A stretch of DNA of 64,000 nucleotides from Pseudomonas sp. Os17 (GTDB lineage Bacteria > Pseudomonadota > Gammaproteobacteria > Pseudomonadales > Pseudomonadaceae): the NCBI RefSeq assembly GCF_001547895.1, contig NZ_AP014627.1, positions 4,839,501 to 4,903,500 of the forward strand, in the 5' to 3' direction. How positions within the stretch are numbered: the stretch's first letter is position 1; every line of letters starts with the position of its first letter. The position numbers were made by a program, and so were the translations under genes. Positions 24,277-25,118 of this stretch are shown here, in pieces. The notes beneath the pieces are model-generated. The model searched no databases. It was not told the origin of the DNA and saw only the letters and a program-made list of their open reading frames with translations.

Positions 24277-24597
24277 TCAAGCGCACGAATGCCGGGCCTG
24301 CGCGGCAGCCTCGGTGAACTCCTTGAGCCAGCGCAATACATCCACCGCCTCCCAGCGGCCTGGATCATAGAGGGCGTACAGCAGCCCCTGGTAACCCACC
24401 ACATCCAGTTGCCGATGGTAACCGGCACGCTGGAACAGGGCCTCGATCTCGGCAAAGCAGGTATTGAAATGCAACTTGTTGAAGGGCGTCTTGCCTTCAG
24501 TGACCAGTCCGTCCAGGCGCAGCTCCAGCACCGCCTCCCGAACCACATCGGCAGACATGCCGTTCACGCTGTTTTTCAGTTGTTCGACATTGACCAT
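24277..24597 (-). CDS. Unknown protein downstream of the SOS box
   Basis: This 106-residue protein is not recognised. It begins MVNVEQLKNSVNGMSADVVREAV, has a helix-turn-helix-like first third, a Phe/Tyr-rich centre (NKLHFNTCFAEIEALFQ) and ends with an Ala-rich helix. AAAGGAATAC precedes two adjacent ATGs (24600 and 24597). It starts 41 nt after the UmuD-like gene on the same strand, so it is probably cotranscribed from the LexA-controlled promoter and part of the DNA-damage response. Codon use is normal for the genome. Confidence 0.7.
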   Translation of the reverse strand: MVNVEQLKNSVNGMSADVVREAVLELRLDGLVTEGKTPFNKLHFNTCFAEIEALFQRAGYHRQLDVVGYQGLLYALYDPGRWEAVDVLRWLKEFTEAAAQARHSCA

Positions 24598-24637
24598 CAT
24601 GTATTCCTTTAACGATTCGAAGCGTGCGCCACATCCA

Positions 24638-25084
24638 TCAGGGCTGCTTGCGCCCCACATAACTGACCACCCACAGCACCACGCCCCAGATCTCGATCGA
24701 GTCCGGGTCATCCAGCGCCATGGAGGGAATTGAAGGCCGCGCCGCCTTGAGCAACAGACCGCCCCGAGGATCGGGCGCCAGCAGGCGCAGGGAGTATTCA
24801 GCCGCGCCCCGGGGCCTTACCACCAGGTACTGATCCACCACCGGAGTGGCCGAGCGATCGACGATCAACCGGTCTCCGGGGTAGATGCCGAACCCCAGCA
24901 GGTTGTCGTCATCCACCAGCAGGCCGTGGATCTGCGGAGCCCCAAGCCCCAGGGTCCGGTCAAGGGAAAAACCGTTGCCGATGGGCTCACTGGCCAGGGA
25001 GGCACAGTCACCGTCACCCTGCTCCAGGAAACGGGCTGGCAACGGCTGTGAGCGTTCGGAACCGGTCAGGAAAGTGAGAGACAT
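24638..25084 (-). CDS. UmuD/LexA-fold protein lacking the Ser-Lys dyad
   Basis: This 148-residue protein has the S24/UmuD C-terminal fold: GIYPGDRLIVD aligns with the UmuD and LexA segment after the catalytic serine, and the EIWGVVLWVV ending is typical. Where UmuD has Ser60 this protein has Asn61 (DDDNLLGFG), and where UmuD has Lys97 it has Arg100 (EYSLRLL). No Ala-Gly or Cys-Gly cleavage pair is visible in the N-terminal arm. It therefore cannot self-cleave by the known mechanism and has no DNA-binding domain. ATG 25084 follows GAGGAGT. A LexA box sits just upstream. It may imitate UmuD in holding a partner; that role is inference. Confidence 0.82.
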   Translation of the reverse strand: MSLTFLTGSERSQPLPARFLEQGDGDCASLASEPIGNGFSLDRTLGLGAPQIHGLLVDDDNLLGFGIYPGDRLIVDRSATPVVDQYLVVRPRGAAEYSLRLLAPDPRGGLLLKAARPSIPSMALDDPDSIEIWGVVLWVVSYVGRKQP

Positions 25085-25102
25085 GGCGAGACTCCTCGAT
25101 AG

Positions 25103-25118
25103 CTGTATATGCATACAG
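25103..25118 (-). promoter_or_regulatory. LexA (SOS) box
   Basis: CTGTATATGCATACAG fits the CTGT-N8-ACAG consensus exactly, with a largely alternating AT core close to the ideal CTGTATATATATACAG. It lies 19 bases upstream of the start of the UmuD-like gene, overlapping the expected promoter. Confidence 0.93.

Follow-up and report, generated by a model that had tools for sequence, protein, structure and literature searches.

The cleavage of UmuD is the textbook switch that takes the SOS response from accurate to mutagenic, and phage P1 makes HumD, a UmuD' homologue without a cleavable arm, without a umuC of its own. According to the review PMC3901139, mutagenesis by UmuC or DinB is prevented by full-length UmuD2, DinB makes fewer -1 frameshifts in the presence of UmuD and RecA, UV mutagenesis is largely reduced by the UmuD variant S60A, and UmuD and UmuC together act in a checkpoint. 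The passages of the same source on Acinetobacter describe UmuDAb as a repressor and umuD as carrying a 5' extension in A. baylyi. Phage 186 CI has SIRE where LexA has TVKR, according to the part of PMC12984324 that deals with it. No UmuD that has Arg in place of the catalytic Lys (Arg-type) or that is devoid of the Ser-Lys dyad was found described in the titles and abstract openings of the open-access literature, subscription papers being outside the scope of this survey. Here, we analyze such a UmuD-like protein, encoded without umuC (an orphan) in some plant- and soil-associated Pseudomonas. It was studied in a window of 64,000 nucleotides of Pseudomonas sp. Os17 (contig NZ_AP014627.1), where its gene lies between a LexA (SOS) box and a gene of 106 codons named P106. 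By the names and loci of its homologues, this genome, a single contig, belongs close to P. protegens.

The UmuD-like gene occupies positions 24638..25084 of the minus strand and encodes 148 amino acids (protein P0001) plus the stop codon. Its start was set at 25084, behind a putative ribosome-binding site GAGGAG (25092..25097, minus strand, read directly from the sequence), which agrees with the MSLT start of the homologues; the listed open reading frame begins at 25114, i.e., within the LexA box. P0001 has the UmuD' fold, as judged against the E. coli UmuD' structures 1umu and 1ay9, and further fold matches are UmuD and LexA in their RecA-filament structures (8gmt, 8gms, and 8s7g). In the alignment to 1umu/1ay9, Asn61 (codon 24902..24904, minus strand) falls on the catalytic Ser60, as in the family alignments, and Arg100 (codon 24785..24787, minus strand) on the catalytic Lys97; the Ser-Lys dyad is absent. 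The protein scores 22.1 bits with PF00717 (Peptidase S24; gathering score 23.3 bits) and 34.2 bits with the UmuD/RulA model NF007621 (cut-off 110 bits). No cleavage-site motif of the C/A-G-F-P-S-P type was seen in P0001. The N-terminal arm (residues 1-37; 24974..25084, minus strand), where the UmuD cleavage site would be expected, has lost the motif and evolves fast, and in the predicted structure it is without confident structure, the predicted local distance difference test (pLDDT) being <50 over residues 12-39. Because both catalytic residues and the cleavage site are lost, the protein is very probably incapable of self-cleavage, and it is best filed as a UmuD-derived pseudoprotease rather than as UmuD proper.

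The LexA box, CTGTATATGCATACAG (25103..25118, no strand assigned), lies 18 nucleotides (nt) upstream of the UmuD-like start and is the single CTGT-N8-ACAG site of the window. With 0.85 sites expected there by chance, and with 41 sites in the genome vs. 25 for a reversed control, this loose form is weak evidence in the window and modest evidence in the genome. The box can be trusted because its full form, CTGTAT-N4-ATACAG, is rare (four sites in the 6.89-Mb genome vs. none for the reversed control), because it stands before the gene, and because it is conserved: a strict box was found ≤130 nt from the first gene in 80 of 80 named loci, which are the best-scoring of 363 relatives, so that close kin are over-represented. 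Among 29 distant P106 loci, from genomes hand-picked to span weaker P106 matches, 25 have the strict box and the remaining four have GTGT replacing CTGT at the corresponding place. This gives 105 of the 109 P106 loci inspected, 11 of which have a UmuD gene behind the box. A promoter and terminator scan found nothing. Another of the four full-form boxes stands before what we take to be a YebG-like open reading frame, a classic SOS gene, and the one at G000:C1:56479 precedes a presumably radical-SAM-like frame (PA0069 family).

The order in which the active site was dismantled can be followed in 131 family rows, which come from two homologue searches (23 hits, and the best 120 of 136) and ten locus sequences and include fragments and near-duplicates. 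The Lys position is filled by Arg in 100 rows and by Lys in 20, with a gap or another residue in the other 11; an intact Ser-Lys pair occurs in 19 rows, i.e., in 19 of the 20 Lys rows. The Ser position of the Arg rows is occupied by S (73), T (16), N (6), G (2), D (2), or a gap (1). All 16 rows of alignment A1 have Arg at the Lys position. In a tree of 121 rows, a Lys-type side (17 rows, all with Lys) is separated with support 100/99 from a second side of 104 rows. Since this second side has Arg in 101 rows (read by motif in 14 of them) and Lys in none, the rest being P0208 (Leu), P0228 (Cys), and P0229 (Ala), Lys was lost at or near its base. The tree is built on few columns, with 31 forks open; P0228 and P0229 form the first fork of the 104-row side as drawn, and the tree tool warns that long branches may draw these two and the Lys side together. 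In both, the dyad is replaced (Ala/Cys and Asp/Ala) and the motif ITGFQSPADD is still present. Homologues of this branch with an intact Ser-Lys pair, a possibility raised in the first-pass annotation, were looked for and are ruled out by the same count (Lys in 0 of 104 rows).

The orphans form one clade (100/96) whose sister is L098/P0021 (99/86); for 11 named loci and L092-L097 the DNA itself shows their orphan status, and for P0008-P0020 the tree suggests it. The exchange of Ser for Asn is confined to the protegens-type subclade. Of 73 non-orphan Arg rows with ≥135 amino acids, 70 have the motif TG(F/L)xSPA, vs. 0 of 19 orphan rows; the canonical cleavage motif is present in 17 of 20 Lys-type rows. 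Loss of the motif is restricted to the orphans. That it is kept elsewhere despite the missing Lys is the oddest fact of the family. A further sequence, P0025 (196 amino acids on a 1298-nt contig), is LexA-like, with Ser and Lys, and has a C-terminal tail nearly identical to that of the window protein; it is perhaps a chimeric assembly. On plasmids, 257 records match P0001, all of them at <60% identity, and the name umuD is given to most of the 20 that are listed.

The neighbourhoods suggest where the orphan came from. The 80 named loci include no umuC; 69 of them have the order box-P106 and 11 the order box-UmuD-P106. In one genome, G125, the order is glutaredoxin, box, UmuD (Gly/Arg), a UmuC of 421 amino acids, P106, and RluA; umuC adjoins UmuD in the sister sequence L098. 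Among 13 Arg-type UmuD loci (L098-L109 and L115), UmuC follows directly in 11 and is truncated in L103, and L106 breaks off at the contig edge; the motifs DCNxFYxSCE and YS(I/V)DE are kept in all 11 UmuC frames. Because G125 has box-umuD-umuC-P106 at the same place, the orphan would most simply be derived from a umuDC operon minus umuC. An insertion of umuC into G125 instead of its loss elsewhere is possible; it is less simple because UmuC is present in 11 of these 13 Arg-type loci, which lie outside the orphan clade. In the truncated case (L103:1842-3214, genome G063), umuC ends after ~36 codons and is followed by a frame that looks recombinase-like by eye, which fits the rulB insertion hotspot as treated in the relevant part of PMC4542609. 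A search for Umu remnants between the glutaredoxin gene and P106 in UmuD-free loci (tblastn, E ≤ 1, five loci) gave chance-level matches only, and therefore loss is indistinguishable there from never having gained the gene. This gap measures 501-524 nt in L070, L072, L073, L080, and L081; an apparent small open reading frame of ~65 amino acids with a hydrophobic stretch, not UmuD, lies in it in L070, L072, and L080. In L099, L101, L107, L108, and L109, Arg-type umuDC stands beside a divergent frame with an MCGG start, which we take by eye to resemble SRAP/YedK, and L101, L108, and L109 additionally have a presumably CsrA-like frame (by eye).

Selection was estimated as the Nei-Gojobori ratio of nonsynonymous to synonymous substitution (dN/dS) in 12 orphan genes, within three subclades (six, four, and two genes) and pooled; some dS values exceed 1, so the ratios are rough. 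The globular part gave 0.069, 0.098, and 0.113 (pooled 0.149) and the N-terminal arm 0.449, 0.301, and 0.318 (pooled 0.525), with P106 at 0.041, 0.037, and 0.062 (pooled 0.048) and glutaredoxin at 0.086, 0.060, and 0.074 (pooled 0.057). All 12 frames are open across 142-148 codons. The globular core is clearly under purifying selection; therefore, the UmuD-like protein probably serves some other purpose when DNA is damaged.

A PF00817 search found no UmuC in the window genome, only two genes that look DinB-like and ImuB-like by eye and by their neighbours, and DinB is by eye the sole Y-family gene with typical motifs. An imperfect LexA box, CTGGTGCTATATACAG (CTG-N10-CAG; L181:1396, G000:C1 about 1418623), ends 65 nt before the first dinB ATG, so dinB may be weakly SOS-controlled; its divergent neighbour is an open reading frame that we take to be MprF-like. 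A P0001 search (E ≤ 0.001) found no second match in this genome, and the six PF00717 matches above cut-off look by eye like two LexA and four helix-turn-helix repressors; the PF00717 search does not reach cut-off on the window protein itself, and a very divergent UmuD could be missed.

The observation in the first-pass annotation is confirmed, and its interpretation is supported in part. What stands is the perfect LexA box at the promoter, the UmuD ancestry, Asn61 and Arg100 at the catalytic positions, the absent cleavage site, the 106-codon gene next on the same strand, the lack of umuC, which extends to the whole genome, and, very probably, the non-cleavable product. Its proposal that the product competes with UmuD is not supported here, with neither a second UmuD match nor a UmuC in this genome. 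The conservation of the Ser/Lys loss holds for Lys, gone from the whole branch, but not for Ser, which became Asn only in the protegens-type subclade; the two losses were not one event.

From what is observed and computed here, namely fold, residues, locus, absence of UmuC, tree order, and selection, the following scenario can be proposed. A LexA-controlled umuDC unit would have stood ancestrally between the box and P106, with Arg already replacing the catalytic Lys of UmuD. In one lineage, umuC would have been lost and the cleavage-site motif would have decayed; in the protegens-type subclade, Ser would have given way to Asn, the globular fold being held by purifying selection behind the box. 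The resulting protein would be induced by DNA damage, would not cut itself, and would stay in a long UmuD-like state. This state restrains mutagenesis in E. coli, and the same effect is proposed here: without UmuC to serve, the protein would most likely bind DinB and/or the RecA filament, giving less error-prone synthesis or slower replication during SOS, and P106 would be a separate SOS gene on the shared promoter. The statements on full-length UmuD cited above from PMC3901139 lead us to infer that a UmuD that is never cleaved has been retained to manage DinB and/or RecA upon SOS induction, a tentative reading to which we give a little less than an even chance. The wider account is slightly more doubtful: a Pseudomonas/Stutzerimonas UmuD branch would have dropped Lys-based self-cleavage beside a motif-intact UmuC, i.e., a polymerase V with uncleaved or very slowly cleaved UmuD, and then yielded a UmuC-free pseudoprotease that acts alone as an SOS regulator of DinB/RecA, with P106 beside it as a genus-wide SOS effector.

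Several points weigh against the proposed manager of DinB and/or RecA. Both its role and its partner are predicted. The identity to the E. coli protein is about 21%, so the behaviour of the latter may not carry over, and the part that has diverged, the N-terminal arm, is the one that defines full-length UmuD. The gene is patchily spread, with P0001 matches in 7 of 298 Pseudomonas genomes at E ≤ 5e-49. The core is less constrained than P106 and, pooled, than glutaredoxin. Of six other orphan genomes, G271, G292, and G070 also have two PF00817 genes; G072, G250, and G296 carry further UmuC-type genes or pieces, and therefore a missing UmuC cannot be the reason in every genome for keeping the orphan.

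Close behind ranks a RecA-filament decoy, unlikely on present evidence, that would dock uncleaved in the LexA/UmuD groove and dampen or time SOS by slowing the cleavage of LexA or prophage repressors. The match to UmuD and LexA on RecA filaments speaks for it, as does the absence of the cleavage motif and of the two catalytic residues; the low-confidence, fast-evolving arm speaks against it.

Less likely again is a functional pair in which the UmuD-like protein would form a complex with P106 as its lineage-specific accessory. P106 (24277..24600, minus strand) starts at 24597 (106 amino acids) or 24600 (107 amino acids), 40 or 37 nt past the UmuD-like stop. All 11 named loci with a UmuD gene, as well as L092-L097, show the two genes in this order, the LexA box is common to both, and selection on P106 is very strong. 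However, the UmuD-like gene is missing from 69 of the 80 named loci with P106, and insertion or loss at one locus explains the pairing; the gene pair, whose conservation across Pseudomonas the first-pass annotation had asked about, was recovered in 11 of 80 loci. P106 occurs in 259 of 298 Pseudomonas genomes; another sampling recovered it in 62 of the 71 genomes that belong to the genus and in none of 44 genomes outside it. It is a LexA-boxed gene common in Pseudomonas that stands in its own right, mostly without a UmuD gene. The first-pass annotation had proposed it as a partner of the UmuD-like protein, but it is not an obligate one. The window P106 matches nothing in Pfam, NCBIfam, or PHROG at E ≤ 1, and for 19 members the best Pfam match (E 0.018, Csm6_6H, five members) and the best solved structure (E 0.54) were taken as chance. 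Its predicted structure (pLDDT 56.4) was not used, and a phage collection held no copies. Many relatives (best 120 of 425) are named transcriptional regulator or hypothetical, a label for which no basis was found. P. aeruginosa PA0922 is given in the pertinent part of PMC8944484 as a LexA regulon gene divergent from dinB. No dinB was recognised at the five distant P106 loci read, and the identity of P106 with PA0922 could not be confirmed. The conserved upstream neighbour, a glutaredoxin-like gene (PF05768; 25196..25432, minus strand), lies outside the SOS unit.

It is very improbable that the gene is a functionless, decaying umuDC remnant transcribed only through its place before P106: umuC and the dyad are lost, the arm is degenerate, most species have no such gene, and the pooled core evolves faster than P106 and glutaredoxin, but dN/dS of the globular domain is far below 1 (0.07-0.11 within subclades, 0.15 pooled) and the 12 frames are open. 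Equally far-fetched is a surviving peptidase, with Arg as a weak general base for Ser or Thr or with cleavage in trans; of the 100 Arg-type rows, 73 keep Ser, and the motif persists in 70 of the 73 non-orphan ones with ≥135 amino acids, but in the window protein Asn replaces Ser and the motif is absent, and five of the six Arg-type umuDC genomes checked (G125, G165, G146, G028, and G137) have a single P0001 match (E ≤ 0.001) and three PF00817 genes (DinB-like, ImuB-like, and the UmuC beside UmuD), so that no other UmuD was found for cleavage in trans there, G001 having a second UmuD-UmuC pair.

If true, an Arg-type UmuD beside a motif-intact UmuC would demonstrate that polymerase V can operate in the absence of its cleavage switch, and the orphan offshoot would be a natural test of uncleaved UmuD acting alone. 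The analysis also brings to light P106, a genus-wide LexA-boxed gene that matches no family.

Compared with described systems, the window protein shares fold, LexA box, ancestry, and, in the sister sequence, the umuDC operon place with UmuD/RulA, the polymerase V subunit of the S24 family; it differs in lacking the Ser-Lys dyad, the cleavage motif, and a genomic UmuC, and it stays below the Pfam and NCBIfam cut-offs. With HumD it has in common that a UmuD-type protein is made without its own umuC; the match to the HumD model NF051876 is weak (E 0.0081; 16.1 bits vs. a 120-bit cut-off), and the window protein retains a divergent N-terminal arm. UmuDAb/DdrR of Acinetobacter likewise combines, in the portions of PMC11332147 and PMC7273328 devoted to it, a UmuD relative recruited to another SOS function with an SOS gene specific to the genus; residues 1-39 of the window protein, short and mostly without confident structure, may set it apart from UmuDAb as described. 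Phage 186 CI, going by the same part of PMC12984324, belongs to the same superfamily and also lacks the canonical active site. CI is a phage repressor without a polymerase link, but it provides a precedent for a dyad-less member.
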